Assembly (NCBI RefSeq): GCF_000003815.2 | Contig: NC_049993.1 | Coordinates: 3,010,570-3,074,569, forward strand | Direction of reading: 5' to 3' | From: Branchiostoma floridae | Lineage: Eukaryota > Chordata > Leptocardii > Amphioxiformes > Branchiostomatidae | DNA length: 64,000 nucleotides | Shown: positions 30,239 to 54,116 of the stretch, in pieces | How the letters are laid out: each line of letters opens with the position of its first letter | Numbering within the stretch: position 1 is the stretch's first letter | Made by a program: the position numbers and the translations under genes | Notes under the pieces: model-generated | Told to the model about the DNA's origin: nothing | What the model saw: the letters and a program-made list of their open reading frames with translations, nothing else | The model's database searches: none

Positions 30239-31690
30239 ATTATAAAATTCTAGTATTCAACACAATACTGTAACAAGAAAACCTCCATACAATCAGGTAG
30301 GGCTAAACATGGGTGTCGCTATCTTTTCAACTTTAGAAAAAAAAAACTTTATTTTATGTATTCACCTAATTATCTAAGCATCATGGTAGCTGTTGGATCT
30401 AAAGATTTAGTCAAATCTACATCTGGGATCTAGTATCTTAAAATCTGTAGTATCTAGACATAGAAATGTGGATAACGTCGCGTAGCATATAAAACATAGG
30501 GCACCCCATGTGGAAGTTAAACTGTAGTTTGATTATGTGACAACTGTATGTAGGTTGCCTTTCCTCTAACTTGCGGATTGCAGGCCTGATAGATATTGTG
30601 TAACCCCTCGGATACAACTTTTGCCAACGATAAAGCTACTTGTTTATTACATCTGTGTAGGTTATTTCTTGTCATGCCATCTTGCCATCCAAGTCTAATG
30701 TTTCAAATTTGTCATCGAACTAACACCCAACTGAGTTTTAGCATTTCTAGTGTCATGATTTCTTAAATTTGAGGTATTTATAAACCAACGCAGAGGAGAT
30801 GGTTTGTGCACTTCTAATAGCTTTCATTATGAAATTTTGCATGGGTACATTTTGCCTAACCCCCTCATGCGTAAGACAGCAAACTTTGTTGTTGTTGTTG
30901 TTACTTTACAAACTGCAAGAACTAATGAGGTTTGGTGCATCGGTTTGGTCTCAGCTGCCCGTTTTTTTTTTGTGTGTTGTTGTGGCAACCGGTTGTTAAC
31001 AGGTATTTTGACGAAAAATGCTGAAAAAAACAACACAAGTGCAAAAGCAAGTGACTGTCCCTTTTTACTACTTAAAAGCATACCTCCCCTTAAAAAAACC
31101 AGCTCTTTAAAAACACCTCGATGACATTATTAGTCAGTCAATGATTCTTAGGATTTGTTTTAATTTTTGTTCATAGAATATAAGATGACCTGGATTTGTA
31201 TTAAGAGTTGGTTTCTGTTGTAAAGGAGCAGAAATGGCAGACAAAGACCAAGGAAAACCTGAGTCCTCCACCAGTGACGAGATGGCAACTGTCCCTGATG
31301 GTGCTGCCTCTGGTAACCACAATGTCGCTGCCTCGGTCAGTTCTGGCCCTCACACGTATTTGGAGCTTGGTAAAGATGGGGTTACATTTCGTTCATACCT
31401 CCGTGTGGATGGTAACGTGGTGGTCGATCCTGATACTCACACGTACTTGGAGCTTGGTGAAGACGGTGCTAGGTTTCGTTCATACTTCCGTGTGAATGAT
31501 AACGTGGTGGTCGTTCCACCGGATACTGCGGAGCCATGCTCTGATGCTAACGACCAACCAGCGGATCCGTACGAACACAAACAACCCGAGGACGCCAGCT
31601 TTTGTCACAAGGCAAGAGGTACGTCAATACACTTTATTGAAATTTACACGTGGCTAATGCTTAGCTCACAGATGACAATGATGAAACATG
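30235..31690 (+). repeat. Segmental duplication, copy B, downstream part
   Basis: Homologous to 9085-9838 and 9943-10414 of copy A (for example CATACAATCAGGT, TTTGCCTAAC, GCGTAAGACAGCAA). It includes the coding exon at 31232-31618. A (TTG)n run stands at 30888-30901 and a T run at 30963-30971. Confidence 0.8.
31232..31618 (+). CDS. Receptor B exon 2: cytoplasmic tail
   Basis: Acceptor GGAGCAG/AA, ATG 31234, 128 codons, donor AAGAG/GTACGT, phase 1. Encodes MADKDQ.. and two modules: [19 protein letters not shown] (about 44-62) and [19 protein letters not shown] (about 74-92). In the second module the last tyrosine is phenylalanine, so three of the four tyrosine motifs remain. The C-terminal part is acidic and proline-containing. 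Confidence 0.85.
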
Positions 31691-34600
31691 AACTTAAAAA
31701 GTTAAGCTAGCTTTAACGTTATCTGTTTACTTTTTCTACTCCCAATGATGTCGTACATAATATGTGTTACACATGGATGTAAAAGGTGTTGCTAATATGT
31801 CTGGATTTGAGGTACTGAATGAATAGAAAGTACATATTTGATGTTATATATTGGTTGGGTGGCAACAAATTCAGGTTGCTGTTGATTTAGCCAAAGTTGT
31901 TTATGTGAAACATAAGAAAAGATGATAATGTTATGGCTGTTATTAACTATCATGTTTACGTTTTACAGACCTGTTGGTAGTTGCTCTATATAAGTAATGC
32001 CATTTCTATGGATGTGTAGTTATGACGGTACAGTTGACTGTTTTTATTTATTAAACAGAACGAAAAGACGGCAACCAGCTTTAAATTGATCAGTCATTAT
32101 GCTTCTTTCCATTGAATTTTTGTGATATATAAATTAATCATCACATTTCTATTCATTTTAGAACGTGCCACAGAAATGTGGACTAAGGCGAAATCCAGCA
32201 AAGTTTGTCAGCTCACACTGGTTTTCGGACTACTGGTGATTGTATCAACTGCAATATTGGTGCATTGTCTCTTACCTGGTCAAAAGGTGTGTCATTTAAT
32301 CTTCTTGACCTTAGAAAGAAGTCATTGCTTGAAATTGAATAATTAGAGAAATAATTTTATTAGTTTTTTTAGCGGTTACCTTCTTTGAAAGTTCTGTGTC
32401 TATCATATTTATAGGAGATGACATGGACGAAGCTGAATACATCAGGTTTTCTATGGCTGGGGGAAACACAATCATCAAATACGGTTGGAACAGCTGTTAC
32501 CTTGCCTCCCATCATTGTGACCTGGCAACCCACCATGACCTTGTCACTTACAAATGTGACCTTGATAGCGAATGCAACTGGCAAGTAAAGACCATGAAAA
32601 AACTAGTTGTGTGAATGAATGATTCTGAATGTTTTTAAAACGTTTTCATCTATTTGTTTAACCCTCAAACCACCGTAGCTTTTTTGCGACGTAGATTACC
32701 GTATGGGGTCAAAACTGCCCCCAAAACATTTTGTACAAATACAGTTTTTTGTGTGACACTTTTTGTGATTTTTATATATGTTTAGTTTCACTAATCTATG
32801 TGGAACAGTCTGACATGATTAGGTGAGAAGATTTCTAGCTCATTATCATAATTTATGCAAAAGATCATGATGACCACATTTTGCACCAATGCTATTCAGA
32901 CTGGGAAGGAGATTTTTGATGACAACGTCAATGCCGTATAACGTCTGAATGGCTCATGCTAGGGCCACCAAACTTGGTAACTTTTTAGAAAATGTTAAAA
33001 GCAAAAATTTTCAGTGAACAAAGTATGTTCATCATTTTTCATGTTGCCATGGCAACGAAATTCTGACAGACATATCTATTACTAATTATTATTATCATTA
33101 AGTTTTCTAATTTTGTATTAAACATTTAAGTTTAAAGGTTTTCTTAGCAGATATCAGTTGTTTATCACATCTTATGAAATTCAACGTAAATTTCATACCT
33201 CAATATTCATGATTTATGCTAATTTAATGACGTCATCAGGCAAAATCCAAGATGGCGGCCGAGATTACCTAAATGACGTCATAATGTCGTCATATAATAT
33301 GATATTGGCACAAAAGCTATTACAATAATTTTGTCTTACATGTACATCATTCTCTAAAAAATTCGTGATTCTAAGATAAGTAGTTTAGGTGAAGGTCGGA
33401 AAAGTTTGTTTAAAAAATGCTGGGGTCAGTTTTGACCCCACTGGACCATACATAAACTTTCTAAGATAACTTAATCAATAATGAGCCAATCTCGTTAAAA
33501 ACTTATAAGAAGTTATAGGACATATATACAAACAAAGTCATGGGAGGGAATTTGTTTTCGACCACAAATGCCATGATGGCACACATCGATATACGCCTGG
33601 GGTCAGTTTTGACCTCATACGGTGGTTTGAGGGTTACATATCCATATGATTGTTGCTCATTGAGATGATTTAGTTAAAGCAACATTTATCAAGCACCTAC
33701 TCGTATTCTCATTATGGTGGATACAAAATGTACCTGCCCGCTTGAATGGACCTTTTTGAGCTTTTCGAACTTGTTGTTAAAAATGTCTCTAGGTGCCCTA
33801 AACCTACACTACTTTTTTTTTCTTAGAACTACAACCACAGCATTTACTGAAAAGGGCGAACATTAAAAGCTGCACTGCAGTACTTGTGAAAGCCACCAGA
33901 AGACAAATTATCGACTTTGCCCTTTGTTTTACTACCCCTAACCACCTATCAAATATCTTGATGGTTCACCCGCATATTTCATGGCTATGCTTGTAACAGA
34001 CCGATGAATACGCCTTCTCACACTAGTTACCACGCACGCGCCGGCAATAGGAACTCTGGGTAGTATGTCAAAGTTGAAGGCCCCCAGAAAATCAACATTC
34101 CGCCATTTTGCAGGCGCCATTACGTCCCGGATATTGTTACACAAATGAAACAATGGTAGAGACGTCAGCGACTGTTGACGTCTGAGGGTCTTTAACTTTG
34201 ACATATTACCCAGAGTTCCTAACACCTGCGTCTACTTGGTAACTAGTGTGAGAAGGCTTATACACAAACTTTACAGTCAACTGTCGGGCGATAAAGATAT
34301 AAGTCATTAAAGCACAATCCCGTTATAGTGGACAGAGTGAACAAGACAGCTGATACATCAAACTCCTAGAGCAAGCTTGTATTTACATTTGGTGCATACA
34401 GCTCGTTATAGGTGCATGTTGTTGTTGCAGTCAAACGATGCGAAGGTGGCTGGGAGGAATACAGCGATTACTGCTACAAGTTTGTGAGAAGATCTGCCAC
34501 CTGGGCTATGGCAGAACTAAGTTGTCAACAACAAAGTGCAAGTTTGGCCTCTATAATGAACAGTCAGGAAAACGGCTTCATTTCACATCTCTTATCAAAT

Positions 34601-37600
34601 GGTAGGTAACTGTAAAAAAAAAAAATTATCATCATCATTTGGTTTGCCGAAAAAGGGAGTTTGCCGTGGCATAAGATAGCATCATTAGCTTGGGAAGGAA
34701 GGCGGAGGCTAATGAAACTCCTCACTAATACTATCTTATGCTACCGCAAGTTCTGCTTGGAGATAAGTTATATAGCTCAGATAGTAACCTCCTTGCTCAA
34801 TACATTACAACGTCCTTGACTCAATACTGCCAAACTGGGGTATGAAATGACGCGATTTTGGTCCAAAAATTTTTTCCAACGCACCAGAATAGAACAGAGA
34901 CCCAAATTGTGTGCTTTGAGAAGTAAAACATAATACGGGTTGCTATAGTTTGCATGAAATAGTGTATAAAACTGACCATGAGAACAACAAATCATTAGAG
35001 AATACTAGTACTACTTAGTATGCAATCTACAGCCATAATGATTCTGGCCTGTCGCCATGTTTGTTATCACTACTGATTAGAATGTTTGTTTAGGGCTGTC
35101 AGAGTAAAATTGCCCATGATGAAAAGAAATGCATGTTTAGTATACTTCGATGTGTAAACTTTTGTAGAAAAACGTGAAAAAAGTGACATTGGTCTCCTCC
35201 TTCTATATTTCCCCCAAGACAATTGTACAAAAGTTGTGTTATTTGGAGGTTGGTCCAGACAGACAACCATACATATGATCTAGGCCGACAAAGGAAAATA
35301 ACCACACTAATTCAACAATTCGTATGTTCTTTTTCTTTTTATAGCTAGAATCCTGTGCTTCCCTTATCAGAAACGCCCATGTTGGTGAAGGGCCCTTTCC
35401 CCGGCCGTTATATTGTGCAAAAAAGTCTGGTCATTTAGGGCAAGGAGTTTATATAGAAATATATGGGGTGTCTTCTATTTAATGTGTTTATGCTGTGCTG
35501 TGCTCTTTTGCAGTTTACTTGAAGCACTTCAAGTATGATGCATAACATTTTTGATAAATGTTTTTAGAGCAGCGGGAGTGGTTAAAACTTTCAGAAGCAT
35601 GTCAAATACTTCAAACATCTATCTGAGTATGAGACTGTGATTTTTCCCCATCTTTTGTATGGGTTAGATTGTAGTTCTCCCTGGTTGTGAAGAAGGTACT
35701 TTTTGTTTGTCGTTCACACCCGGGCAGAGACAAAAGACCAGACTACACATAGTGATACGCCGTGGCAAATACAACTTTTACAATGGCTGCCCTGCTGAAA
35801 TTTAGGATTGAACAAAGGAGCTTCCATTTTGCTCAGCTTTGATTAACAAACTCAAAAGTGTCACATCTAAGTGTCAAATTTATGGTTAAAGAAAATGAAT
35901 CAATAAGAATAAAGAAATGACGATTAGAAAATAGATTGAAAGTTAATCCAAGCGCGTGCATTCCCATATCCCCATTCAGCGTGTCACAGATGTGTATTGT
36001 TTCTTGTTTCGCCGAAATCATTAGTGGCCATGAACCAGTATTCTGTATGAATAAAACACACGACTGTCTTGTCCTTCCCTTTGCACTTCCTCAGATTTTA
36101 GAAATTGAGTGCGAGCAATTACCTCACCAGGACGGATTAGCGCCTGATTGGGATGCAAGGTGAAGGCGGGACACTGGGCGGCAATTATCACTCAAACTAC
36201 TGCATATTTACAAGCTATATACTGGCACTTGGCTCATTTCAATATCCAAGTACCTAATAATCATATTTAAATGAGATATCTGGCAAGGCAAGCCTGGGCA
36301 ATCTTAAGTGAATGGAGCATTAATACGTGTCTCAGTAAGCTAAGATGCATCCTGTTGACAGCTTGAAACATCTGGATGTCTAGAATAACAGTCTTATTCA
36401 TGAGTCAACCCTATCCTGATGATGGGGCGTCAGTTCGTTTCTTACGCAGCAGCTCTCCAGCACATCGGCATTGAGCGCCTTCCAAGACAGAACCTCTATA
36501 CTGACTTTTACGTGAGAGTTGAATGGTTTCTTCGTTTCTCACATGGCTCCCCCCTACCCATGGACAACAGCATGTCAGGCAACTCCGCAACTCTGCGCAA
36601 TACCAACAAGACTGGCAATAAAAATGTATTATTGCCATGACGACGATTGAGGGTACAACAACACAGCTCAAATCAGAAATAGACTGGAACTTCCCTATTG
36701 CACTATCCCTGGCACAATACTAGCCCACTTGTAACATAAACCTACAGCCAGCAGAAATGTACTATCCCAGGTACAGCACAATGGTCTGCCAGTGACCTTA
36801 ACCTACAGCTGAGCACTACAGATTGAAGTATTTACTGTCTGCCTGTGGCGTATGGCTTGAACAAGCTCTAGAAAAGAAAATGTATCATTCATAACATAAC
36901 ATAACATAACAACCAAGACAACGTGATCCATTGTGCAGAGTTCCCTGTCTAGTTTCGAAGGACAAATTCCTCCAGGGAGCAAGTGTGACCTACATTCCAC
37001 CATTGCATACCAGAGATACATCTGGAACAGATTTGGGGGGAGGGCTTGCATACCCAGCATACTGCATTCCTGTGGAAATGCCTTTGCAATTCCTAGAATT
37101 TTTGCAGACTGAATGCAATATATAGCACTTGACGACTCCCATGAGGCGTCGTCAAAAAGCTACTGGGACTAAATGCTACCTAACCAGCGCTATTCCAGCA
37201 ATGATCAAATCATTGAACGAAGTATACGTATATACTCCACCAAGACAATCTGTTTTTAGCTAATGTTGTAGGACAAGTCAATAAGTTTTAGCATGATCAG
37301 ACTTTTAATGTGTATAGTTTTAATCCTAATCGAATTTTCCTTTTAGACATTGTACTTGTATCTACAATATTTCTTCATTAATGTAATATTCATGCAACAC
37401 GTCGTATTTTATTGTTTATGTTACAATGTTCTTGTGAGCAGAAATAAGGTAGCTGTACATAATGTAAACGAGCCTGATAATTCGGATTTCGAACCGCAAG
37501 TTGGCTGTGAGACAAATAAATCATCTCTCTCTCTCTATCTATCTCTCTCTCTCTAGAGGGGGGGGGGTAGGGGTCAGCGCCAACTTTGACGCCGTATAAC

Positions 37601-38439
37601 CATAAAACTGCCAAACTTGGTGACTTTTCCTTGTTCCCCGGGCCCCAGGAATCCCCCCCCCCCCAAAAGAAAAAAGCCCGGTCCCGAAAGGGTTAAATTA
37701 GTATTAGTCGCCCATGACGTTGGATGACGGTATCCGTCTTTTTATCCCCTACATGTAGGTTTACGTATACGATTGGATAAGTGTCCTAATCTAATATCAA
37801 TCACTACCCTGTAGGTGCTAAAAGGGCGTGGATTGGACTTAACAGAATTGAACAATCTTGGAAGTGGATTGGAGGGTCACCAGTCACCTATACAAACTGG
37901 GCCCCTGGTCAGCCTACATATAAGTCGCGGGGGCGTATGGAGCGTTGCGTTAGTATTTACCTCAAGGTGGGTGTTCTGTTTTTTTTCTATTACAGAGCAG
38001 TCTTGGAATTTTGTTTGCAATGCCTGGGTAACAATCAATCAAGGCAATGTCGGATTATGCTGGTCATCCAGTAACATAGTTTACGACAAATAAACCAATG
38101 TAGAATGACGTTACAGTTACGTTATAATACTAAAATTACAGAAAATAGTGTACTCTACGAGTACATCATTCTCAGTAAATTTGTTGGTCGCAATCCAAAT
38201 CGTTTTGAAAGTACGGAAGAATTAACAAAAGCTTGGTCTAGATAGGGGGTGTATTTCTTTTTCCTTTTAATCAAGTATCCTAAAGGATCTAGGTACTTAG
38301 ATTAAACAGTTTTTTTTTACCTTCCCTACAGACAACTAGGTTTGGTGGACCCTTGAAGCCCTTTAGGAGAAGAGGAGCGTGGAATGACAATGAGTGCCGC
38401 TTAAAATTTTCTTACATTTGTAAGAAACTGAAAATCTGA
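31232..38439 (+). CDS. Receptor B: type II membrane C-type lectin, 368 aa
   Basis: Joined exons 31232-31618, 32162-32286, 32415-32580, 34431-34601, 37815-37966 and 38332-38439 give one frame from ATG 31234 to TGA 38437-38439, with all intron phases matching (1, 0, 1, 1, 0). Order: cytoplasmic tail 1-145 with two YxxL/YxxV modules, membrane segment about 146-162, stalk to about 225 with N-glycosylation sites, and a C-type lectin domain 226-368. There is no cleavable signal, so the lectin domain should face outside as in type II lectins. It keeps WIGL and WND; the EPN position reads QPT. One intron (32581) has a GC donor. It probably binds a ligand and signals through tail tyrosines; the signalling role is inferred. 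No AATAAA was noticed close after the stop. Confidence 0.8.
32162..32286 (+). CDS. Receptor B exon 3: membrane anchor
   Basis: Acceptor CATTTTAG, donor CAAAAG/GTGTGT, phase 1 to 0. Basic juxtamembrane segment (WTKAKSSKVCQ) followed by a hydrophobic stretch LTLVFGLLVIVSTAILV. Positive charges on the N-terminal side support a type II orientation. Paralogous to 45732-45853. Confidence 0.85.
32415..32580 (+). CDS. Receptor B exon 4: short stalk, GC donor
   Basis: Acceptor ATTTATAG. Encodes about 55 Thr/Ser-rich residues with sequons NTS, NVT and NAT, and remnants of the TMTL repeat that is expanded in receptor C. Read through, the frame would stop at TAA 32586. Splicing at TG/GCAAGT (32581) gives the phase 1 that the lectin exon at 34431 requires. 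This exon diverges most from its paralogue. Confidence 0.65.
32658..33637. mobile_element. MITE of the CCACCGT family, 980 bp, in receptor B intron 4
   Basis: Left end TTAACCCTCAAACCACCGTA, right end TACGGTGGTTTGAGGGTTAC (the last TTAA mutated to TTAC). Internal order matches the copy at 22822-23709, including a perfect GTTGCCATGGCAAC at 33043-33056 and the GGGGTCAGTTTTGACCCC palindrome near 33422. Confidence 0.87.
34012..34257. mobile_element. Short MITE with long inverted repeats, 246 bp
   Basis: Left GCCTTCTCACACTAGTTACC and right GGTAACTAGTGTGAGAAGGC are perfect 20-bp inverted repeats. Imperfect pairing continues inward (GGAACTCTGGGTA with TACCCAGAGTTCC; TGTCAAAGTTGAAG with CTTTAACTTTGACA), so most of the element folds back on itself. 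It lies 170 bp before the lectin exon of receptor B. Superfamily not determined. Confidence 0.85.
34431..34601 (+). CDS. Receptor B exon 5: lectin domain, first third
   Basis: Acceptor GTTGTTGCAG, donor G/GTAGGT, phase 1 to 1. Encodes VKRCEGGWEEYSDYCYKFV.., then a tryptophan-led helix, a cysteine, LASI and NSQENGF, the normal opening of a long-form C-type lectin domain. Paralogous to 53014-53193. Confidence 0.87.
34640..36318. repeat. 1.68-kb duplicated intron block, copy in receptor B
   Basis: Nearly identical (roughly 96-97% by eye) to 51281-52953 in receptor C. It begins TGGTTTGCCG and ends AATGGAGC. Near its start is an inverted repeat GGCATAAGATAG..CTATCTTATGC enclosing CATTAGC..GCTAATG. 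No terminal inverted repeats or target duplications. Here it starts 38 bp after lectin exon 1; in C it ends 60 bp before lectin exon 1. Confidence 0.9.
36319..37814. other. Rest of receptor B intron 5, no gene seen
   Basis: Contains a (CT)n run at 37524-37554, a G run at 37558-37567 and the MITE end at 37560-37696. A few short open frames have no recognisable content. Confidence 0.5.
37560..37696. mobile_element. Solo MITE end (CCCTATTCAGACC family)
   Basis: The right end reads GCCCGGTCCCGAAAGGGTTAA, matching in reverse the end TTAACCCTATTCAGACCGGGC of the element at 42183, with the internal ATAAC..CCAAACTTGGTGAC block beside it. The other end is missing. Confidence 0.65.
37815..37966 (+). 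CDS. Receptor B exon 6: lectin sugar-site exon
   Basis: Acceptor CCCTGTAG, donor CTCAAG/GTGGGT, phase 1 to 0. Encodes GAKRAWIGLNRIEQSWKW.., then GGSPVTYTNWAPGQPTYKS. WIGL and the NW core are intact; QPT stands where receptor C has EPN, so the principal calcium and sugar site is altered. The residue set is neither the mannose-type EPN nor the galactose-type QPD. Confidence 0.87.
38332..38439 (+). CDS. Receptor B exon 7: lectin domain end and stop
   Basis: Acceptor CCCTACAG, 35 codons then TGA. Encodes ..RGAWNDNECRLKFSYICKKLKI, with the WND calcium-site motif, the cysteine pair and the usual YICK ending. Paralogous to 54009-54116. Confidence 0.87.
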   Translation, partial: TTRFGGPLKPFRRRGAWNDNECRLKFSYICKKLKI

Positions 38440-40234
38440 TCCTAGAAGATTTTTGAGGTATCTTGGTTCATAACCGGGAAGTATGAGCTTAAGGCCTTAA
38501 AGAGTGGTGGTTGAAGTGTTTTAGGGGTGTTTTTGATGTTATAGAATTACCATTTAATAAGGCATGGGCCTTGATTTTCTCTAAGCATTACCTTATGTCA
38601 TAAATGTAATTTTTGCAAGTAGTATGGCGTCATGATGACGTCATTGAGAATTATAAGGCCATGCATATTTAGATGAAAAAGCTATAAAAGTGTAGCCTGG
38701 CATGTAATTCGACGATTGTTATTAATACTTTACAGAAATGTGGATAAAAGATTTAGCGATTTAAAAAGGCCTCTGCGTGGATTTTATCATATCTTGTAAT
38801 GTTGATTTTTTGTGTGAATTTTTTTCATTGAATTTTCGTTACCCCTTACACTACCAACAATCGGGAGCACTTAATAGCACCCTTTTGAGGTGGCTGAACC
38901 AGAAATTATACCTTACAGGGTTAATATTAAAATAAGATCCATTTGGCTGGTTTCGATTAACTTTTTTTCTGGGATATCGCTCTGAAAATCATATTATTGT
39001 CACAATAGTCAGGCAATCCACTTTTATGGGACGTAATAAGACCGAAAATGATATTTTTGAGGTCAGATTTGTATTCGGTGTGTGCCAAAACCTCTGTGTA
39101 CAAGTTTTTTTTTGTACTTTCAAGGATAGGAAACCTATAGGCTCGTTTCCATTTACAAGTCGAAATGCTGTCGCCTGACTTTACGCCTTAGTATGGAGCA
39201 GATCATAGACAACATCACAGGTTCCTTCATTTTTCCACAACCCCTGTAATGTTTTACACAAGATGCACAGTAACATTCGTATTGGTTAATGGCTTAGAAG
39301 ATTACTATCGCCACGGGTGGGATTTGAAACCCTAAAAAATGGCTGTCGCCTGGGAAGAAACGAAGAATTCAAATAGTAGGCAAAAATGTAACAATTAAAT
39401 TCCCAGACTGATTGTTCGATAGGTGAAACCAGCTGACCAGGCCCTTTGACCGATCACGTCAGATCACTACTGTCACTTCTCTTGGAGGCTGTGTAAGGTT
39501 GTTTATGCCTGTCGCCAGATCCGGTAACGAACGTTATCTCCATGAGTACGATTACTACCACGATTATGTTATCCACGTATAAGACTAGAAATGGCCGCTT
39601 TTGTGACGCTATACAGTTTTTCTGACGTTCTAAAGAAACAAGAAAGGGTTGTTGACTGTCATTTGTATCCCACCTTGCTTAACATAGTGTTGTACAGAAA
39701 TGACTGTAACAAAAGTTACCATTGTTCTATGCTGTTAAAGCATTCTATTTCACCTGTTGTAAAAAAGCTGCCCACTTTTTAAATGCTCCTAGGGGCTTCT
39801 AGTTATACCTAAATGATGTATTCAATAAGGTGAGTCCTTTCTAAGAAAACATGATAAAGTCTATTGTTGTAACAAACGTTATCGGTAACGTTTGTCACGT
39901 GCCCTGTAATGCATTACCAATGGGACAGAAAATAATAAGTTGCCCTTTTCTGGCTATGGTCAAAAGAGTAATTTTTCCAAACAACCAGGTAGTTTTCACT
40001 GAAAATAAAGCCGATTTATTTTTTGACCAAAAAAATGCAATTTTCGACATTTCAATGAGAACGAGTGTATAGTGTTTTTGTTGCATATTCAATTAGCCGA
40101 CTTTGATTTTATTACCCCAGGAAGTCAGTTATTATCAATCAATAATCAATTATAACTCAGAAATTTAAGGATCAATGTGAAAATATCTTTTTGCATAGAA
40201 TTTTTTTTCTTAATTTCGGAAGTGAAGAAGTAAA
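38440..40234. other. Intergenic, no gene seen
   Basis: AT-rich sequence between receptor B and the LINE remnant. No conserved exon, repeat or RNA gene was recognised; short open frames appear random. Confidence 0.5.
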
Positions 40235-40930
40235 TATCGCTTCCTCCGGTTGGAAAACGAATCAGCAAAAGTTGGTCTGCACCTTAATGCCAAGAAAGTA
40301 AAACTGATGGCATACAATCAGGTACTTTCCATTGTAATCAGAACTAAGAGTGGAGACCTAGTGAAAGTGGTCAATAACTTTAAGTACCTAGGCTCCAACA
40401 TGGAGAGCACAGAAAAAGGACTTTGAAGTAAGGAAGCCTGGATCAGCTGTCATAACCTAAGGGAAATCTGGATGTCTGTGCTGTCACGAAAAATCAAGCT
40501 GAAACTCTTCATTGCAACTGTAGAATCCATCATATCATACGGTAGAGAAACATTGACACTTACCAAATCTACGACGAAAAGTAAAGTTGATGCTACACAA
40601 ACATGCTCCGAATGTGCCTGAATATCATCTGGGAGCAGAAACTTACTAATGAGAAACTATATCAAGACTTGCCATTAGTCACTGAGAAATTAAGGATAAG
40701 AAGAATTAAATTGGCAGCTCATTGCGTCAGGTATCCAGACATCGTTGCCTCTAAGTTTGTACTCCAACAAAGGGGAAAAGAAGCCGAGGAAGACCAAAGC
40801 TGACCTTCATAGACAAACTGAAACAAGACACCAACCTTACCGATGTGAAGGAAATTAAGCCCCTGAGGGAGAGTTGGAGAGCACTTTCAAGCCTGGTTCG
40901 AGCTGTAGCTCGGCCAAAGTAAATGATTAA
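40235..40930 (+). pseudogene. 3' fragment of a second LINE type
   Basis: Conceptual translation in shifting frames gives VNNFKYLGSNME, then LTNEKLYQDLPLVTEKLRIRRIKLAAHCVRYP and, at the end, ESWRALSSLVRAVARPK with a stop near 40920. This is the post-RT C-terminal region of a non-LTR element (KYLG motif, RR..LAGH-type motif). A TAAG-type tail follows (GTAAATGATTAAAGTAAG). 5'-truncated and frameshifted. Confidence 0.7.
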
Positions 40931-41822: not shown

Positions 41823-41928
41823 GTAGAGTTCTCTTTATTCTCCCGGAGCACAACGCATCGTGTTTTTTTTTTAAATCTAAAAGTGGCAAATGTAGTGCTA
41901 GCTAAGTGGTATCCCCGAAAGAAGCATG

Positions 41929-43147: not shown

Positions 43148-43432
43148 ACTGCATTGAGATCGGTTTTCCATTTTCTCGGTTTTCCATCTACTTGCACTAA
43201 AACATTTCTGTTGCAACATTTGCGTCATCCATCAGGTGACACTATAAAGGTCCTCCAGACGACTCTATTGCTAATGACAGACAGGAGGTCTCCATCTCGG
43301 AGGCCAACATCCTCAAGTGACACTTACACGGCAAACATTTTTGACTGCATCTCTAAATGTTGTATGAGTATTCAGCCCTATGGGTACTGCCTCTCTCCTA
43401 TAAGAAGGAATAAAACGTTTGAAATGTCTTAT

Positions 43433-44180
43433 TTAACCCTATTGAGGTCGCATAACGCCTTAAAGTGTAACTTAGAGCCCTCAAATTGTAAATAATTTTC
43501 TATACTGGGGCAGAAACAGGTTTGGAAAGTTTTCCTTTTTCCTGCTGCCATGGCAACCGGTTGTTAAGGTATTAGTGACTAAAATTGATCCCTGATTTTG
43601 GTTCTAACAATGTATCTTAAATATTTTATTGCTATCTTACTGCAATTTTATCAAGCGAATAAATCGAATGGAATTAAGCATATATTTCAATAGGCATGGT
43701 TAATGCTAATGCAGTGATGTCATATGCCAAAATTCACGATAGCAAACCATTTCATCAGATCAAGTATAACTAGCTTACTAGTATAACTACCAGTTGTTGC
43801 ATCATCATAAAAGTTCAAATGTATTTTGTGACTGTTTGCTAACAAAATAGGTTTTTAGAAATTCATTTTGGAAGACGCCAACTGTTATCTTGAATATGTA
43901 CAATGTCATTTTCGGACGTCATTGGAACGTCATTGCTTTTAAAACTGACATTAGACATTAATATTCTGTAATCTAAATTTTGTTCCGAGCGTGCTACATG
44001 CCTTGAAGTTTTGTGGGAATACCTTTTTGCATGATTCCAATCACAAATATGTCTAAATGACGTCATATTTCGTAACAATGCCGTCCAATTTTTTACAACA
44101 ATTTATTTTTTCTTTCTATTCACTTGATTTTCGTAAAATTTGGTGTACATATGATAAGCAGTTATTGGAGTTCCTTTGTA
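43433..44180. mobile_element. Diverged MITE copy of the same family, inverted
   Basis: Starts TTAACCCTATTGAGGTCGCATAACGCC. Its interior matches the reverse complement of 42700-43060 (GCCATGGCAAC at 43547, TTTTGGTTCTAACAATGTAT, ATTTTATTGCTAT). The far end is eroded. Confidence 0.7.
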
Positions 44181-44326
44181 GTGCCTCAACCCTTGATGAC
44201 ACCCCACCCGCCCAACATTGACCAAAAAGCCAGTCTGAAGAGAGTTACGCGTTCTTGAAATAACGTTTTGATGATTTTATTAGCCGTTAACTTAAATTGA
44301 AACTTTGTTTCGATTGGAAGGTACAG

Positions 44327-44635
44327 AAATGGAGGAAAAGGACAAACGAAAATCTGGGACACCTCCAAGTGACGAGACGGCAACTGTCGCCGATGGTACC
44401 GCCTCTGGTGACCACAATGCCGCTGCATCGGCCAGTCCTGACCCTCAAACGTATCTGGAACTTGGTGAAGATGGACCTACGTTCCGTTCATACCTCCGTG
44501 TGGATGACCACGTGGTGGTCTTTCCACCGCTTCAAGCGGAGCCAAGCTCTGAAAACAGCGACAACAACGACCAACCAGAGGATCCATATAAACCCAAGCA
44601 ACCAAAAGACGTCAGCTTTGGTCACAGGGCAAGAG
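44327..44635 (+). CDS. Receptor C exon 2: cytoplasmic tail
   Basis: Acceptor GGTACAG/AA, ATG 44329, 102 codons, donor AAGAG/GTATGT, phase 1. Begins [10 protein letters not shown]. It has a single module, [19 protein letters not shown] (about residues 41-59), where A and B have two in tandem. Ends [10 protein letters not shown] as in A. Confidence 0.86.
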
Positions 44636-47600
44636 GTATGTCAATGTACTTCATTTAATGAGAGCTCTATCTCATTTTACAGTTGATATATGTTTAGGAA
44701 ACACTTAGATGACGCTGATAAAAAAATGAGAAAATTTAAAATTATATAAAATTCCGATCCCAAGTAGAAAAATTTATTGAGTCAGCTTACCTTTGCTACT
44801 ACTAGCCCTAAATTCAGGCGTGCACATTAGTTGGGCATAAATCTGTAGCTGTCGCTAATATGTCTGGATTTCAGGGTACAAACAGAAAGAAAGAAAACTG
44901 GGTGGCTTTTGAGGCCCGAACCTTATTCATGTCGCATACCACCTAAACGCTTACAACCAAACTTCGTTAATCTGCATAAATATAAACTGGCCACTACACT
45001 ATAATAGTTAGGAAAGTTCATAATTTTTCCGGTTTCTGACAGGCATATCTAAAAAAATGGCTAATTTCGGTTTTAGAAATGTAGTTTTTAGGTTCACTTG
45101 GTAAATGACTTGGTATATCATTCGATGTTACTCGCGATTTCTTATATAAACCAATTGAATTTTCATAATTTATGCTATTTTTGTGACTTCCTTGGTCAAA
45201 AGACCCAATATGGCGGACCATTTCTTCAGCTCAAGTGTAATCAAGTGCACCTGAAATTAGTCAATAGCGTCTAGTTGTACGGATCCCATCTAGTAGCTTA
45301 GATGTACATGACGTGGTTTGGGGATACATTCGTATTCTGCTATTTCTTTCTGATAAATTTTCAGAACAACCTTGAATTAGTTTTCCTGGAATTTGTATGG
45401 TCCCAGTCAATAAAATCATATCAATGACATCAAATTTGTTCCAAGTATCTAGTCTATGTGTACATTATTCTTCGAAAAGGTAGTGGTAATACGTTAAGTA
45501 GTTTAGGAGTTACTGGGAGCTGGCCTTATTATAACACCCTTCCTCTCTTGCCATGATACCCCAAAAAGGCAAATCTTAATAGGGCTAAGATGATTATTAA
45601 TCAGTTGTTGGTTAGTTTTAACGCATATAATGCAAGACTGGTAGCAAGTTCTAAATTCTATTTGCATCAATTGAAATAAGTAGGATGTAAATCAATAATA
45701 ACGTTCTTATCAATTTCAAAACCCGCCACAGAAAAGTGGACTCAGGCAAAATCCAGTAAAATCTGCCGTCTTGCACTGGGTTTCGGAATCCTGGCTATTA
45801 CGGCAGCTGTTGTACTACCAATACTGATACCTCGTCTCGTACCTGGGTGGAAGGTGTGTCATTTAATGGATCTTGATAACTGAATTATGACTTTCGCTTT
45901 GATGCTATGCTTCTGTATATATGCTATGCCAAGTTAGTCATTTATATGGTATAGTTAATGAATTATTTCATTATCTGTGCTTTACCATTTTGCTACAGCT
46001 GTATTCTGGGCAACCTTAGAAACCGACAAATTTGGCTGAAGCGGCGACCCTGGTCTTTTTAAGATTGAATAAGTGAATGAATCTCCATGAACTTCGAAAA
46101 AAATCTCAGAGTCATTCCTCAGAGTCAAGTGTTGAATAATAAATAGTGTTCAGGTATCTGCTGCCTTCATGAATTCAATAAATGTTGTCTGTTCTTTTCG
46201 AAGGAGTTTCATGGACCAGAGAATCAGACCCTCATGGTTGTAAAGGCAAACCTAAATACATCAGGTATTCCATTGTTAACTACATCCTTTGGAGTACACA
46301 AGTCCACATTCCCATCTTCTTCATCGGGACCAATGGCAAAGCAATCCCCAACTACCATTGAAACCGCAATTAAAACCACTATGACTTTGCCACCCAACAC
46401 TATGACCTTGCCACCCAACACTATGACCTTGCCACCCAACACTATGACCTTGTCACCCAACACTATGACCTTGCCAGCCACCACTATGACCTTGCCAGCC
46501 ACCACTATGACCTTGCCACCCACCACAGTGACCTTGCCACCCACCACTATGACCTTGCCACCTACCGATGTGACCTTGTCACCCACCATTATGATCTTGC
46601 CACCCACCGATGTGACTTTGCCACCCACTGCCGTGACCTTGACAACCACTGCAATGACCTTTCCAATCAAATATGGTGGATTTAATTTCACCTTTGTACC
46701 TGGATGTTCTGGAGAGAACTGTCAGAAAGGTGAGTTAATTAAAAAACATTATCAAAATAAAAAAGGTTTTTGCGTTGTCTTTTTTCTTTTCTGCAGTCTT
46801 TTTGCGTGTTTGCAGGAGTATTTCGTAGACATTTTGTAATAAACTTCCCATTGGCAATTGGCACGGATAAAATCCATCATGTTGCATACTTGTATCTAAG
46901 GTCAATTATCACTAAGCTCCACATCCTAAAATGCTGTACAGAACTTTAATGTAATTATATAGTCACCACATATTCTAACTTTACATACATTGTGACCAAC
47001 CCTGTTTCCTGCTTAGTCTTATAAAACATGACGACCTATTCGCCAGAGGATCTACTGAGAATAACAGTGATAACTTCTTCCTCTTTTAGAAGGTAAAAGC
47101 TGTGGGTACACCAGCCTGGGTTGCTGGAAGGACAAGTATCGCCGCGCCATTCCCCGACTCGAGAGGACAGATACTCGCCTCGATGGCATTTACTACAAGC
47201 GAAGCAGCCCCATACCAAAGTGCCACCAGGTAGCACTCAGTCGTGGTTTTACAGTATTTGCCATTCAAAATGGTGGGGAGTGTTTCGGGTCTGCTGATGG
47301 CCTCAAGACCTACAAGAAGTACGGACCTTCAACAGACTGTGCAGCGGACGGAGAAGGCGGGTCGTATGCATCTCAAGTGTATAGGATAACAGGTCAGGAT
47401 AAAGTAAATGTATTGAACTGTCCTTGTAATAATAATTTAAATGCTTCAACTATGACATGTCTCACGTATTTCCATGCTCATGCACTTTTTTTAACGCTTC
47501 AACACGTTTTGGTGTGTCTATAGAATATCCTTTCTGAAATTAAATTATCGTGATATGAGCTTCGGACCTATAGTATACCAAATGTTGAATTGTCATTTTA

Positions 47601-50600
47601 ACACAAAGATACCAGAAACCCATGCCAACATGGACTTTGTGCGAACAAAGATGGAGGCTATGTGTGTACTTGCTCGCCTGGATGGACTGGACAGAGCTGT
47701 CAGCATGGTGAGATCTTTTCCTGAAATGTTGATATATTTATGGCTTCAAGAAAAACACAGGGGATCTGATACCGTGTGTTCTTTTCTAAAAAAAATCTCC
47801 TATGAAAACAGACTGGGGAAAACTGACTCAACGAAGGTAAAGAGCGATATGATATAAATCATACAACGTATCAAGATATTATCATGTGATGATTCTATAT
47901 CTACTCAGGAGGCTGATATGGTCCAAAACGAGACAATGTCATATTCTGCTGAAATAGCATAATGTTTCAGAGTACGAGTATAAGCAGTCAAGAAGTAATT
48001 AGTTAGTTTGTCTTTATTTTTATTAAAGAATATAATTGAAACAGTTGAGATCGATGTGCATGTACAGGTTGCCGCACATTGTTATGACTTACGGTCGTTT
48101 AATTCAGCATCATTTATTATTAATAGGAGAACCATCAGATTGGATCCATGTAGCTCGAGACATGTATCAGTAACAGATCAGTGAAATCTGAAAATACTAG
48201 TATACCAGACGGACAAAAGGGGCTAACTTTTATGAGGCAGTAAACTAATTCTACCATTTGGCAAGGTTGCCCATTTTTGTAGATATTTCTAAAAGTCATA
48301 AAATCCTTTGTTTGAAAAGTATTGTAAATAAAGAGATTTCTGTGTGATCTCTTTTAAAATGTTTCCAAAGTATTCAAAGAAATTCCATATTAATATTTTT
48401 GAAAAAATTATAACTGTTGTGGCTAAGGTATTCTTTTATTCAAAGTAATTCCAACTTATTACAATTATTGTCCAAAACCCTTGTGGTATCTCGGAATGGA
48501 CTCTAGAGCCTCCAAATTGCACAATTTTTTGTAACACAATTACAATGACTCAAATCAAGGTGATGAAGCTGATTTCTGTAATTGACAATGTTAAGTTATG
48601 AAATTGCATTCTTTATAACACAGATATCAATGAATGCAACAAACGCCCATGTCAACACGGAAGCTGTGTAAACAAAGATGGCGGATACAAATGCCTGTGC
48701 TCGCAAGGATGGACTGGAAAGAACTGTCACCAAGGTGATTTCCTTTCTCTCTAAAAGTCAAATACTACTTGCATTCCTTCTTCTTGCAAACTGATCTACA
48801 TTTTTAACACTGCAATGAACGTTGACCCTCAGCGAATAGAAATAACAGCATATTCGACATTCTTTCTCGAAAAAAAATTATTAAAATAAAGAACTGGTGA
48901 GAAAACCTGAATAAATTAAGCTATAGACTTTTCTCTATTGGTCTGTTTACACATTTGTCTCTCAGTTAAGCATCGCGATTTCTTTAAAACGTGTGAATCA
49001 ACAAATTGAATCGATGTCATGTATCAGCAGTGACAGTATTTTTAGGCACAGATATATTATTCAACATCGCATTTTTTAATTCATTCCTACACTTATGTCT
49101 CAGCTCCAAATGATAAAATTTGAGCTAATAATTTTTAAGTTATAAAATTTCTTTCTGTATAACACAGACATCAACGAATGTATCAAACGTCCTTGTCAAC
49201 ATGGCGGCTGTAAAAACAAAGCTGGCGGCTACAGATGTCTCTGCTCGCAAGGATGGACTGGAAAGAACTGTCGCCAAGGTGAGTTTCTTGTAAACGTAGA
49301 CATTGCCAATTTTTGTGGCCATATTTTAAAAGTCGTAATTGACTTTCGATTCGTTCCTGTTTAAATAATTTCGCTTATACAACTTTCATTCCCTTGTTGC
49401 GAAATGATCTAGATTTTATTTTACACTTTAATAGACTTAAACATTCAGCTACGTAAAACTTTGACATATATCAAAAAGAAGAAACGAGAAATGAGTAGAA
49501 GAAACTGAATAAACAAAGCTACAACCTCTACCCTATGGATCCGTTTGATATCGATCTTTCAGATCAACATTGTTTCTTTAATTATGATAACCAGCAGATT
49601 TAAGTGATGTAGTGTGATATGATATAATATGTTAAATGACAAATTACTATTGCACAGATGTAAATGAGTGCAGGAAGAACCCTTGCCAACATGGACAATG
49701 TGTGAACAAAGATGGCGGATACATCTGCGAGTGTCAGACGGGGTGGCGTCGACAAAACTGTGATCAGAAGGGTGAGTGTTTTCAATTGTCCGCAATTCTT
49801 TCATTTGGTAAGAAATAACATTTCTAAGGCTAGGCGATTATTTATGGTGTAAACATTGAATTACATATTATACGTCTACGATGCTGCAAATTTATTATTA
49901 AAAATAGTTAACGACAATGTCGCATTGATACTGACCAAACTTACCTTTAGACTACATTACATTTATGACGACAAAATACTATATAGTAATAGTAACTAAC
50001 CTGTCTAACTACCAAACATCATGAGAATCTACCAACCCCTCCTTAATGAGGTATTATCTTCAAACAAAACAAGTATAAACGAAATAGACCATCTAATTCT
50101 ACTAATGCTTCCATGGGGCCGAATCCACTCGGCCTTTGTACGGGGATACAGATTGGAGAAATTGCGACATTTTGCTTGGACATCCCTCTGTTGACTTAAG
50201 ATGGCCCAGGGCATATGAGCGCTACTTTCAAAGTCCTGTAGGAAAATTGTCATAACTCCGTCATAGAAGCTTGAAAATGCCTCAAATCTGGTGTATACGA
50301 AAAACACAACTATAAGAATGCAAACATGAGTCATTTATGAAGTTACATACTCTGAATTTTGAGATATTACAATTTATTATGATGTATAATTTTTCCAACA
50401 AAATGTAGTCTAGAAAACCATTCCCAACGCGCAAATTACATGAAATTTTTTTAGTACATACTGACATATGTTCCCTTTCAGAACTAGTGAGATTTATTGA
50501 GAAACATGTTCCTGCTCTGCGAAAAATATTGATTTTTTCACATTTATGCATATAATTTTAGGGTACCTTTTTCTATAATCACCTTATAACTCAAAACAAA

Positions 50601-53600
50601 GACCATGTACAATATATTCAACTACACCTGAGTGTAGAACAGGACATTTCCAACGATTTAATTTCCTTTTCAATCATTCTAAGTCATTGCTACCGTTTTC
50701 TACAAAGGTTTGAAGTTTGTACCATCAATTTTTACCCTGTAAGCCATGTTTTAGTAAATCTGCCCATCACTCAACGTGACAGGTCGTAATTAGCACCTCC
50801 ATGGGAAGGAATTAGCTGTAATTTGCACTTGTGCCATGACAAAAGAACCAAGGTTTATTGTTATGCGTAGACTAGTCTGTTGGTATAAACAGTTGTTTTG
50901 TAGCAAGATTGTTATTATGCTCATAGAACGAGAAAAGTTTTAGGCAGTCTTAGAGAATCAGTCTCTCTATTTACGTTGAAGATGGATTCTACAAGATGCA
51001 CATCCAGAAAGCCGTACAAAATGTAAAAGTAGGGTTCAAGCGCCACCAACTGGGCCGGGCATTTTGGCCCCGCAGCGCGGCTTTGAATCCCTGGTGTCAA
51101 GAGACTGTACTATTCGGCAAAAACTCAGCAAAATTCGCTCAAAACAAGTCCGACTTTGCCTCTGTTGCAGTCTTCGAACGGGGCAGGTTTTTATTGGGGA
51201 TGGGGGGGGGGGTTGGTTCGCGATTTTCAACTTTTAGCTACGTTTTCATGCGCCGGGAAAGGGGTTCTGCCCAAGGAGCTTGGTTTGCCGAGGAAGGGAG
51301 TTTGCCGTGGCATAAGATAGCATCATTAGCTTGGGAAGGAAGGCGGAGGCTAATGAAACTCCTCACTAATACTATCTTATGCTACCGCAAGTTCTGCTTG
51401 GAGATAAGTTATATAGCTCAGATATTAACCCCCTTGCTCAATACATTACAACCTCCTTGACTCAATACTGCCAAACTGGGGTATGAAATGACGCGATTTT
51501 GGTCCAACAATTTTTTCGAACGCTCCAGAATAGAACAGAGAGCCAAATTGTGTGCTTTGAGAAGTAAGACATAATACGGGTTGCTATAGTTTGCATGAAA
51601 TAGTGTATAAAACTGACCATGAGAACAACAAATCATTAGAGAATACATGTACTATGCAATCTACAGCCATAATGATTCTGGCCTGTCGCCATGTTTGTTA
51701 TCATTACTGATTAGAATGTTTGTTTAGGGCTGTCAGAGTAAAATTGCCCATGATGAAAAGAATTTGAAATCCACCCAAATGCATGTACAGTATACTTCGA
51801 TGTGTAAACTTTTGTAGAAAAACGTGAAAAAAGTGACATTGGTCTCCTCCTTCTATATTTCCCCCAAGACAATTGTACATAAGTTGTGTTATTTGGAGGT
51901 TGGTCCAGGCAGACAACCATATATATGACCTAGGCCGACAAAGGAAAATAGCCACACTAATTCAACTCGTCTGTTCTTTTCTTTTTATAGCTAGAATCCT
52001 GTGCTTCCCTTATCAGAAACGCCCATGTTGGTGAAATGCCCTTTCCCCGACTGTTATATTGGGCAAAAAAGTCTGGTCATTTAGGGTAAGGAGTTTATAT
52101 AGAAATACATAGGGTGTCTTCTATTTAATGTGTTTATGTTGTGCTGTGCTCTTTTGCAGTTTACCTGAAGCACTTCAAGTATGATGCATAACATTTTTGA
52201 TAAATGTTTATAGAGCGGCGGGAGTGGTTAAAACTTTCAGAAGCATGTCAAATACTTCAAACATCTATCTGAGTATGAGACTGTGATTTTTTCCCCATCT
52301 TTTGTATGGGTTAGATTGTAGCTCTCCCTGGTTGTGAAGAAGGTACTTTTTGTTTGTCGTTCACACCCGGACAGAGACAAAAGACCAGACTACACATACG
52401 CCGTGGCAAATACAACTTTTACAATGGCTGCCCTGCTGAAATTTAGGATTGAACAAAGAAGCTTCCATGTTTCCTGTGATTGACAAACTCAAAAGTGTCA
52501 TATTCAAGTGTCAAATTTATGGTTAAAGAAAATGAATCAATAAGAAAAAAGAAATGACGATTAGAAAATAGATTGAAAGTTAATCAAAGCGCGTGCATTC
52601 CCATATCCCCATTCAGCGTTTCACAGATGTGTATTGTTTCTTGTTTTGTCAAAATCATTAGTGGCCATGAACCAGTATTCTGTATGTATAAACACACGAC
52701 TTCTTGTCCTTTCCTTTGCACTTCCTCAGATTTTAGATATTGAATGCGAGCAATTACCTCACCAGGACAGATTAGCGCCTGATTGGGATGCAAAGTGAAG
52801 GCGGGACACTGGGCGGCAATTATCACTCAAACTACTGCATATTTACAAGCTATATGCTGGCACTTGGCTCATTTCAATATTCAAGTACCTAATAATCATA
52901 TTTAAATGAGATATCTGGCAAGGCAGGCCTGGGCAATCTTAAGTGAATGGAGCCATCCACGCAAGGCTGATTTTCCTCACAAGCTCTTTATACCTACGTG
53001 TTGTTTGTTACAGCTACATGCCAAAAGGGTTGGGTGGAAAACAACGACTACTGCTACAAGTTCGTAACAAGCACTGCCGCCTGGTTTACGGCAAACTTAA
53101 AGTGTAGAGAGCAAGGTGCAGTTCTGGCCTCCATCGGGAGCAGTCAAGAGAACGGCTTCTTTAAAGATTTCTTCAAGTATGCTGGTATTTATGGTAGGTA
53201 ATAAACAACTAAATTCCGTGATTCATAATTTAAAAAATATATAAACTTAAAGTGACCAGAATCTTACCAAGGGTAAGAACAATAAGGAAGTACTACCATT
53301 GTGACTTGTCCGGCAGTTTGAATGGTGGATGGACCCCCATAAACACATAAACTCATAAACATCACAGACTGTCTACCCGCCAGAAAGAAAGGCCAGGGAC
53401 AGATTAGCAAAAAACTGGTCATAAGATTCAATTATCCTGTGCTGGTCTTTGTAGGATATCATAGGAACATTATCAAACCAAACAGAATGACCGAAAGGAA
53501 ATAACAAAGTTAGATAATCCTAGACAGTTTTAATCAGATAATATCCAATATAAAACAATACTATCTGCAGGTCCAAAACGTGTGTGGATCGGACTACGTA

Positions 53601-54116
53601 GAGAGCGTGGAGCCTGGAAGTGGCATGACGGGTCACCAATCACATATACCAACTGGGCCCCGAATGAGCCCAACAACAACGGAAGAGAGAACTGCGGTAT
53701 CATATACGCTAAGGTTGGTGTTCCCTGTTGTCTATTACAGAACCGTAGTGTAAAAATAAACTGTGATTTATAGAAAATAATGGAGATTCAGCACTCAAAT
53801 ATCATTATTAAGGGGCGTTTAAACCAGTTAGAGATTCCTATTTCAAACCAATAACAATACATGCATACAGTGTAGCGCAACTCGTCCAGGACATTTTTTT
53901 TAAATAATTGATAATATGACATGGTTTCCTCTAAGACAACGGAGACTATAAATGACAATGCGCTTTGAAGAAAATTAACAATCTTTTTGCATGCAACAAT
54001 TCTTACAGAGCAAACCAGGAGCTCTCTTTATATTGTCCAGGAGGATAAGAGGAAAATGGAATGACATAAACTGTATGTCGGAATATCCTTACATTTGTAA
54101 GAAGCAAATAAAGTAG
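44327..54116 (+). CDS. Receptor C: type II membrane EGF / C-type lectin, 707 aa
   Basis: Joined exons 44327-44635, 45732-45853, 46204-46729, 47090-47392, 47609-47707, 48624-48734, 49168-49278, 49658-49771, 53014-53193, 53571-53713 and 54009-54116 keep one frame from ATG 44329 to TAG 54114-54116. Order: cytoplasmic tail 1-115 with one YxxL/YxxV module, membrane segment about 116-136, Thr/Pro stalk to 318 with 14 TMTLPPN-like repeats, cysteine-rich domain 319-419, four EGF domains 420-564 and a C-type lectin domain 565-707 with WIGL, EPN and WND. EPN predicts calcium-dependent mannose-type binding. EGF 1 lacks its first cysteine. AATAAA at 54339-54344 is a candidate polyadenylation signal. Same family as B but much longer outside the cell. 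Confidence 0.83.
44895..45590. mobile_element. Degenerate MITE relic in receptor C intron 2
   Basis: Contains CATGTCGCATACCACC..CGCTTAC..CCAAACTTCGTTAA, CATAATTTATGCTA and a right-end relic AATAGGGCTAA, the vocabulary of the TTAA MITEs elsewhere in the window, but the ends are eroded. Confidence 0.45.
45732..45853 (+). CDS. Receptor C exon 3: membrane anchor, shifted acceptor
   Basis: The paralogous acceptor TTTTAG of B is TTTCAA here. The next AG, 12 bases on (GCCACAG/AAAAGTGG), keeps phase 1 and removes four residues. Encodes [11 protein letters not shown] then [21 protein letters not shown]; donor TGGAAG/GTGTGT. Confidence 0.78.
46204..46729 (+). CDS. Receptor C exon 4: mucin-like stalk
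   Basis: Phase 0 to 1, donor CAGAAAG/GTGAGT. After an NQT and an NTS sequon, 14 direct repeats of 21 bp (46378-46671) encode TMTLPPN-like heptads, with P-to-A and N-to-T changes in the later ones. This should form an extended, probably O-glycosylated spacer. The exon ends with GCSGENCQK. The homologous exon of B has only two or three decayed units. Confidence 0.83.
46378..46671 (+). repeat. Coding minisatellite, 14 x 21 bp
   Basis: Unit ACTATGACCTTGCCACCCAAC. The first three units are almost identical and later ones diverge progressively (ACAGTG.., GATGTG.., GCCGTG..), so the 5' end of the array expanded most recently. Unit length is a multiple of three, so copy-number change stays in frame. 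Confidence 0.95.
47090..47392 (+). CDS. Receptor C exon 5: cysteine-rich domain
   Basis: Acceptor CTCTTTTAG, donor AACAG/GTCAGG, phase 1 to 1; a one-exon, one-domain unit. Encodes about 100 residues: [14 protein letters not shown].., [59 protein letters not shown]. From memory it resembles a GC(W/F)xD domain found in many cnidarian and lancelet extracellular proteins, distantly like WSC domains. I cannot name it more exactly. Confidence 0.75.
47609..47707 (+). CDS. Receptor C exon 6: EGF 1, five cysteines
   Basis: Acceptor ACACAAAG, donor [28 protein letters not shown].. then [12 protein letters not shown]. Compared with the next three EGF exons it lacks the NEC.. segment, so cysteine 1 is absent and the calcium-binding start (DINEC) is lost. 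Confidence 0.75.
48624..48734 (+). CDS. Receptor C exon 7: EGF 2
   Basis: Acceptor TAACACAG, donor [31 protein letters not shown].., six cysteines, DxNEC start and GGY as in calcium-binding EGF domains. 37 residues, phase 1 to 1. Confidence 0.88.
49168..49278 (+). CDS. Receptor C exon 8: EGF 3
   Basis: Acceptor TAACACAG, donor [31 protein letters not shown].., with the ending SQGWTGKNC identical to EGF 2; the two exons are recent duplicates. Calcium-binding type. Confidence 0.88.
49658..49771 (+). CDS. Receptor C exon 9: EGF 4
   Basis: Acceptor TTGCACAG, donor [32 protein letters not shown].., then [15 protein letters not shown]. Six cysteines, one residue longer than EGF 2 and 3. Confidence 0.87.
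49772..51280. other. Receptor C intron, first part: no exon seen
   Basis: No EGF- or lectin-like exon was found although the intron is 3.2 kb. 50996-51280 includes GC-rich sequence unlike its surroundings (GCGCCACCAACTGGGCCGGG, a G run at 51200-51210), possibly part of the element that carries the duplicated block at 51281. Confidence 0.5.
51281..52953. repeat. 1.67-kb duplicated intron block, copy in receptor C
   Basis: Partner of 34640-36318. Differences are scattered single changes plus small indels (for example 15 extra bases near 51762 here). High identity suggests recent duplication or gene conversion between the two receptor genes. Confidence 0.9.
53014..53193 (+). CDS. Receptor C exon 10: lectin domain, first third
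   Basis: Acceptor TTTGTTACAG, donor ATG/GTAGGT, phase 1 to 1. [18 protein letters not shown].., tryptophan-led helix, [20 protein letters not shown]. The exon is nine bases longer than its paralogue in B. Confidence 0.88.
53571..53713 (+). CDS. Receptor C exon 11: lectin sugar-site exon with EPN
   Basis: Acceptor TATCTGCAG, donor GCTAAG/GTTGGT, phase 1 to 0. [20 protein letters not shown].., [15 protein letters not shown]. The EPN triplet after NWAPN is the canonical mannose/GlcNAc-type calcium and sugar site. Confidence 0.9.
54009..54116 (+). CDS. Receptor C exon 12: lectin domain end and stop
   Basis: Acceptor TTCTTACAG; ..[21 protein letters not shown] then TAG at 54114. Contains the WND calcium-site motif and the closing cysteines. 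Confidence 0.9.
   Translation, partial: SKPGALFILSRRIRGKWNDINCMSEYPYICKKQIK

Follow-up and report, generated by a model that had tools for sequence, protein, structure and literature searches.

What do the repeated tyrosine motifs do in the predicted cytoplasmic tails of a C-type lectin cluster of the lancelet Branchiostoma floridae, and are the tails joined to lectin domains at all? The cluster lies in a stretch of 64,000 nucleotides (NCBI RefSeq assembly GCF_000003815.2, contig NC_049993.1, positions 3,010,570–3,074,569 of the forward strand), hereafter referred to as the window, in which position 1 is the first nucleotide. An earlier note on this DNA had proposed a family of tyrosine-signalling lectins with a tail motif close to an immunoreceptor tyrosine-based activation motif (ITAM). 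We find two real-looking genes, B and C, predicted to encode type II membrane C-type lectin receptors with the tail in the cytoplasm, as well as a third, upstream tail exon, A. The tails share a 29-residue module containing two tyrosines. The most likely reading, to which we assign a probability of roughly 45%, is that these tyrosines would be phosphorylated and would also serve uptake as YxxPhi sorting signals, which consist of a tyrosine, two residues and a bulky hydrophobic residue. This reading draws on stop-free gene models with Pfam lectin (PF00059) and EGF domains and one membrane anchor each, on selection in the tails, on the conservation of TYLEL and on the YxxPhi form of every module tyrosine.

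Three paralogous tail exons are present where the earlier note had placed them, all on the forward strand, with ATG codons at 9950 (A), 31234 (B) and 44329 (C), 2 nt past the starts given there. Exon A (9950–10334) has 128 codons and ends in a phase-1 donor (gtaggc); the corresponding first exons of genes B and C occupy 31234–31618 and 44329–44635. The N-terminal tails start with MADKD in A and B and with MEEKD in C. The pattern YLELxxDGxxFRSY(L/F)RV occurs twice in tails A and B and once in C, with 13 residues from tyrosine to tyrosine and 9 residues separating YxxL from YxxV, so that this part of the earlier description is borne out. Aligned copies give the 29-residue consensus (D/G)(P/T)(H/Q)TYLEL..DG..FRSY(L/F)RV...VVV.P, in which 17 of the 29 positions, including DG, FRS and VVV, are invariant in all five modules. 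The paired copies lie at 10061–10234 in A and 31345–31518 in B. Their identities over 87 nt are 74 (A1–B1), 73 (A2–B2), 69 (A1–A2), 72 (B1–B2), 72 (A2–B1) and 66 (A1–B2), with values of 71–72 to the copy in C; the A and B copies are thus only slightly closer to their counterparts, which is a poor guide to the age of the internal duplication. A second conserved block outside the module, NDQPxDPYxxKQPxDxSF, contains an extra tyrosine in DPY(V/E/K)xKQP (10286 in A, 31570 in B and 44587 in C), which is invariant in the three tails and does not have the YxxPhi form. A scan of viral contigs for the tail gave nine pattern matches, none of them a relative, and phage records gave no match. The module strings FRSYLRV and YLELGEDG were not found in the open-access literature searched, nor was any report of this lectin receptor family, although the coverage of that search was partial and its outcome is no proof of absence.

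In both B and C, as the earlier note had claimed, the tail precedes a membrane anchor and a C-type lectin domain; three exons encode the latter. Splice sites were picked by consensus, B–C homology and reading phase; the agreement in phase is therefore partly built in, but the existence of such sites at every junction is not. All exons are on the forward strand. The model of gene B contains six exons and encodes 368 residues with no internal stops: the tail with two modules, the membrane anchor (exon 2, 32162–32286; best 19-residue hydropathy 2.66), a short Ser/Thr-rich stalk (exon 3, 32415–32580) and the C-type lectin domain (exons 4–6, 34431–34601, 37815–37966 and 38332–38439, the last of which ends with the stop codon). 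The model of gene C contains 11 exons and encodes 707 residues, again with no internal stops. Its tail with one module is followed by the membrane anchor (exon 2, 45732–45853; best hydropathy 2.55), a stalk with a 21-nt repeat (exon 3, 46204–46729), a WSC-like domain (exon 4, 47090–47392), four EGF-like domains (exons 5–8, 47609–47707, 48624–48734, 49168–49278 and 49658–49771) and the lectin domain (exons 9–11, 53014–53193, 53571–53713 and 54009–54116); the stalk repeat, the WSC-like domain and the EGF domains are additions relative to B. The stop codon of C ends at 54116, which coincides with the end that had been given for the cluster. Each model contains one strong hydrophobic segment, and in each a single lectin domain follows an N-terminal tail and a single anchor, the arrangement of type II C-type lectin receptors.

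Three junctions are doubtful. The stalk exon of B requires a GC donor (gcaagt), failing which an immediate stop follows in frame. At the position of B's membrane-exon acceptor AG, gene C has AA (45714–45735), and the model takes a same-phase AG 12 nt downstream of it as the acceptor. For the WSC-like exon, the model adopts the one of two candidate donors that preserves phase. The tail exon has a phase-1 end; the WSC-like, the four EGF and the first lectin exons of C are of phase 1-1, as in the pattern that exon shuffling would be expected to leave. The 21-nt tandem repeat that encodes the C stalk spans 46312–46707, and B carries only a short related stretch. A repeat of ∼1.7 kb is present in introns of both genes (34639–36318 and 51280–52953) with 94% identity over 1,697 aligned columns; it is far more alike than the B and C exons and is therefore probably a mobile element or a recent copy.

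Pfam assigns one C-type lectin domain (PF00059) above the cut-off to each spliced model, with E values of 1.3e-21 for B and 8.5e-20 for C, and four EGF stretches to C. The WSC-like exon matches PF01822 with an E value of 7.6e-05 and 23.3 bits, which is under the curated cut-off of 27.8, and its structure prediction is of very low confidence (mean predicted local distance difference test score, pLDDT, of 33.6). Among the best 60 of 229 matches to solved structures, the B lectin domain resembles the secretory phospholipase A2 receptor, lymphocyte antigen 75, the yolk sac IgY receptor and mannose receptors; the best 60 of 251 matches for C are of the same kinds, with the addition of Delta-like 1 and Notch EGF chains. 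The sugar-binding residues differ between the two: exon 10 of C encodes EPN and exon 11 WND, whereas in B the EPN is replaced by QPT (exon 5) and the WND is retained (exon 6). Mannose-type sugar binding can therefore be suggested for C alone, whose lectin domain may bind such sugars, and B, having lost the EPN, probably binds something else.

The tyrosine motifs of the tails do not belong to any of the classical immunoreceptor classes. In an ITAM, two YxxL/I motifs are separated by 6–8 residues. The strict pattern Y..[LI]x6-8Y..[LI] has no match in the tails and six six-frame matches in the window, and the wider pattern Y..[LI]x6-12Y..[LI] none in the tails and 19 in the window; when V is allowed, 7 of the 36 matches to an ITAM-like pattern fall in the tails. 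The earlier description of the module as close to an ITAM thus holds for the resemblance in spacing and fails by the definition. The immunoreceptor tyrosine-based inhibitory motif (ITIM) has the consensus I/V/LxYxxL/V (PMC8211107), and at all ten module tyrosines the residue at position −2 is instead H or Q (first tyrosine) or R (second). A half ITAM (hemITAM) of the Dectin-1 type carries a tri-acidic DEDG ahead of the motif (PMC11624271); YLEL is preceded here by GPHT, DPHT, DTHT or DPQT, and the second tyrosine by TFRS or RFRS.

All ten module tyrosines have the YxxPhi form, and phosphotyrosine docking and AP-2-mediated uptake therefore both fit. The proteins might instead be endocytic receptors only, with YLEL and YLRV bound unphosphorylated by AP-2 and repeated to boost uptake, and with no kinase signalling. 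That every module tyrosine is a YxxPhi site while no tail pair matches the strict ITAM agrees with such a role, but YxxPhi is short and common (loose YxxPhi pairs have 73 six-frame matches in the window, seven of them within the tails), and the fixed 13-residue spacing and the long invariant context of 17 positions exceed what a sorting signal needs. We regard a purely endocytic function as rather unlikely. In composition shuffles, the observed number of YxxPhi sites in the tail was reached in 84 of 20,000 for B (four sites), 271 of 20,000 for A (four sites) and 910 of 20,000 for C (two sites), where the sites in A and B are not independent because of the internal duplication of the module.

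Pairwise ratios of nonsynonymous to synonymous substitution rates (dN/dS) between the tails are 0.30 (A–B), 0.27 (A–C) and 0.44 (B–C), and the tails appear to be under purifying selection overall. TYLEL is identical in all five modules even though all five codons vary synonymously, and in the second motif Y and V do not change in any of the five, but neither do their codons. We consider this conservation to be stronger evidence for the module than the shuffle counts; we reject a chance run of YxxPhi sites in view of the homology, the shuffles and the selection on the tails. Codons 16–21 of the module (RSYLRV), unlike those of TYLEL, have changed synonymously only once across the five copies, and this codon conservation may stem from gene conversion or an overlapping splicing signal. 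Synonymous divergence (dS) between B and C increases from 0.44 in the tail to 0.73 in the membrane exon and 0.98 in the lectin domain (few sites), and the low value of the tail is consistent with conversion or with a younger tail exon.

The module may alternatively be a small folded β-unit that binds a cytoplasmic partner, with TYLEL, FRSYLRV and VVV as strands, DG as a turn and the tyrosines in a structural role. The 17 positions that are invariant in all five modules, DG and VVV among them, agree with such a unit, as does a low-confidence model with strands at residues 40–45, 52–58 and 61–63 and again at 70–75, 78–87 and 90–93. However, the confidence of this tail model is very low (mean pLDDT 40.6, predicted template-modelling score 0.19, three sequences), and Pfam assigns tails A and C to no family and gives a single chance-level match for B (E value 0.086, under its cut-off). 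A folded unit of this kind seems improbable to us.

We thus return to phosphorylation combined with YxxPhi uptake. Clustering by ligand would lead a Src-family kinase to phosphorylate YLEL and YLRV, which would then dock SH2 proteins, either a Syk-like kinase or SHP/SHIP phosphatases, while unphosphorylated YxxPhi sites would drive the uptake of the bound particle. The tyrosine pair would in this way act like an ITAM or ITIM, although it is neither by definition. Reported precedents for such a mechanism are provided by the lancelet receptor BbLcLRR and the oyster hemITAM lectins discussed below. Several results weigh against this interpretation. By definition the module is no ITAM, ITIM or hemITAM, as the pattern tests show. 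Conservation does not set the tyrosines apart, since DG, FRS and VVV are equally invariant. When changes were polarized with C as the outgroup over codons aligning with C (99 in the A–C alignment), the B-lineage tail had 10 synonymous and 17 amino-acid changes, which is not clearly non-neutral (p 0.07). The A–B dN/dS is 0.70 in module 1, 0.12 in module 2 and 0.29 in both (few sites). Between B and C, dN/dS is 0.44 for the tail, 0.45 for the membrane exon and 0.43 for the lectin domain; the tail, being no lower than the other two, is therefore not specially constrained.

Exon A raises the further question of whether it is used. In the window, neither tblastn nor blastn nor a motif scan yielded a membrane, stalk or lectin exon for A that was convincing. 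With 13 exon peptides as tblastn queries, the A–B interval gave, besides the tails, only short matches (best E values 0.012 with a tail query and 0.019 with lectin exon 3); low-stringency blastn gave best E values of 0.059 for the B membrane exon and 0.56 for the B stalk exon, and the motif scan three fragments judged to be chance. Given the failure of these searches between A and B, we reject A as a complete third receptor gene. Collinear blocks join the surroundings of A and B (6976–7967/24216–25229, 8618–9075/25206–25653, 9079–9793/30241–30958, 9939–10414/31223–31692 and 22802–23708/32636–33636) and point to the A unit as a tandem duplicate of the 5′ portion of B that stops inside B intron 3; repetitive sequence may account for some of the last block, of which parts also match 42.8–43.1 kb. 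Of seven open reading frames submitted to Pfam, three lie between A and B, at 10990–14658 on the reverse strand and 18695–19114 on the forward strand, and match PF00078 (two of them) or PF03372; these predicted reverse transcriptase/endonuclease frames are labelled as of the long interspersed nuclear element (LINE) type.

It is quite possible, if short of an even chance, that A makes nothing and is the decaying relic left by an incomplete tandem duplication. The lack of a convincing downstream membrane or lectin exon, the intervening LINE-type frames and the end of the match to B within intron 3 all agree with a relic. The intact reading frame is weak evidence of use because many neutral simulations stay stop-free (43% at 33 changes and 19% at 66). 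Opposed to decay are the GT donor that follows the exon and the changes on the A lineage, of which 14 are synonymous and 9 alter the amino acid (p 1.1e-4, given a neutral share of 0.77; four changes are ambiguous in the A/B count). A and B also differ at 31 residues, whereas 4,000 neutral simulations with 66 changes gave a mean of 43.8 and a minimum of 31, a figure that includes the constraint on B. Exon A thus seems to have been constrained after the A/B split, more clearly than B, and in view of the excess of synonymous changes B may employ it as an alternative first exon; this would be the simplest use, since the donors of A and B are both of phase 1. A more ambitious proposal would make the 29-residue repeat a signalling module in its own right, different from ITAM, ITIM and hemITAM; its carrier would be a phase-1 first exon that can be swapped, and A would be the alternative first exon of B. 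If true, one lectin gene would be expressible with different tyrosine tails, but we think it unlikely.

Elsewhere in the window, a tandem satellite extends from 251 to beyond 3900 with spacings of mostly 115 and 107 nt; its largest family comprises 40 overlapping 300-nt copies.

If confirmed, these genes would extend the lectin receptors reported outside vertebrates by a branch whose tyrosine motifs are paired and in tandem, and would show tail exons duplicated and kept separately from the lectin domain. With a module that resembles an ITAM but falls outside the definition, the strictness of the spacing and +3 rules for SH2 signalling outside vertebrates could also be probed cleanly. The claim of an invertebrate tyrosine-signalling lectin family stands to the extent that the gene models and tail selection support a small family of lectin receptors whose cytoplasmic tyrosine motifs are conserved. 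The kind itself is already known: in oysters, CgCLec-TM1 and CgCLec-HTM have been described as lectins that carry a hemITAM and act through Syk (PMC13027682; CgCLec-HTM also PMC12842671). Like B and C, the oyster proteins are membrane lectins of an invertebrate and combine a C-type domain with a tail tyrosine motif, but theirs is a hemITAM, and the membrane segment of CgCLec-HTM is C-terminal, whereas here the tail is N-terminal and the motifs are paired in a 29-residue module; C furthermore adds the stalk repeat and the WSC-like and EGF domains. An expression study of lancelet C-type lectins (PMC5752451) does not use the word ITAM in the excerpt available.

Among chordates, the CD94-like lectin receptors of Botryllus and Ciona (PMC5465252) provide a tunicate precedent, likened by description only; the excerpts on them mention no tail motif. 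An ascidian Halocynthia hemocyte glycoprotein has two ITAMs (PMC5465252), and both it and fly Draper (PMC5138034) are, by description only, comparable invertebrate receptors for uptake or aggregation with tyrosine activation motifs, although the motifs there are called ITAMs. In the lancelet receptor BbLcLRR, Lck is reported to phosphorylate ITIM or ITIM-like sites, of which DDYATV and HDYSEV lack the −2 residue, and inhibition in Jurkat cells is reportedly abolished in a triple Y-to-F mutant (PMC8211107). The module shares with BbLcLRR tail tyrosines in a YxxV context without the ITIM −2 residue; that receptor, however, is a leucine-rich-repeat protein and not a lectin, and its function was assayed in Jurkat cells. 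In overall architecture, B and C resemble the vertebrate receptors of the Dectin-1 cluster (PMC11624271), with tail, anchor, stalk and one C-type lectin domain in the same order. They differ in that those receptors have hemITAM or ITIM tails, whereas the lancelet tails carry two or four YxxPhi sites without the DEDG lead or ITIM context, and in that gene C contains EGF and WSC-like domains.

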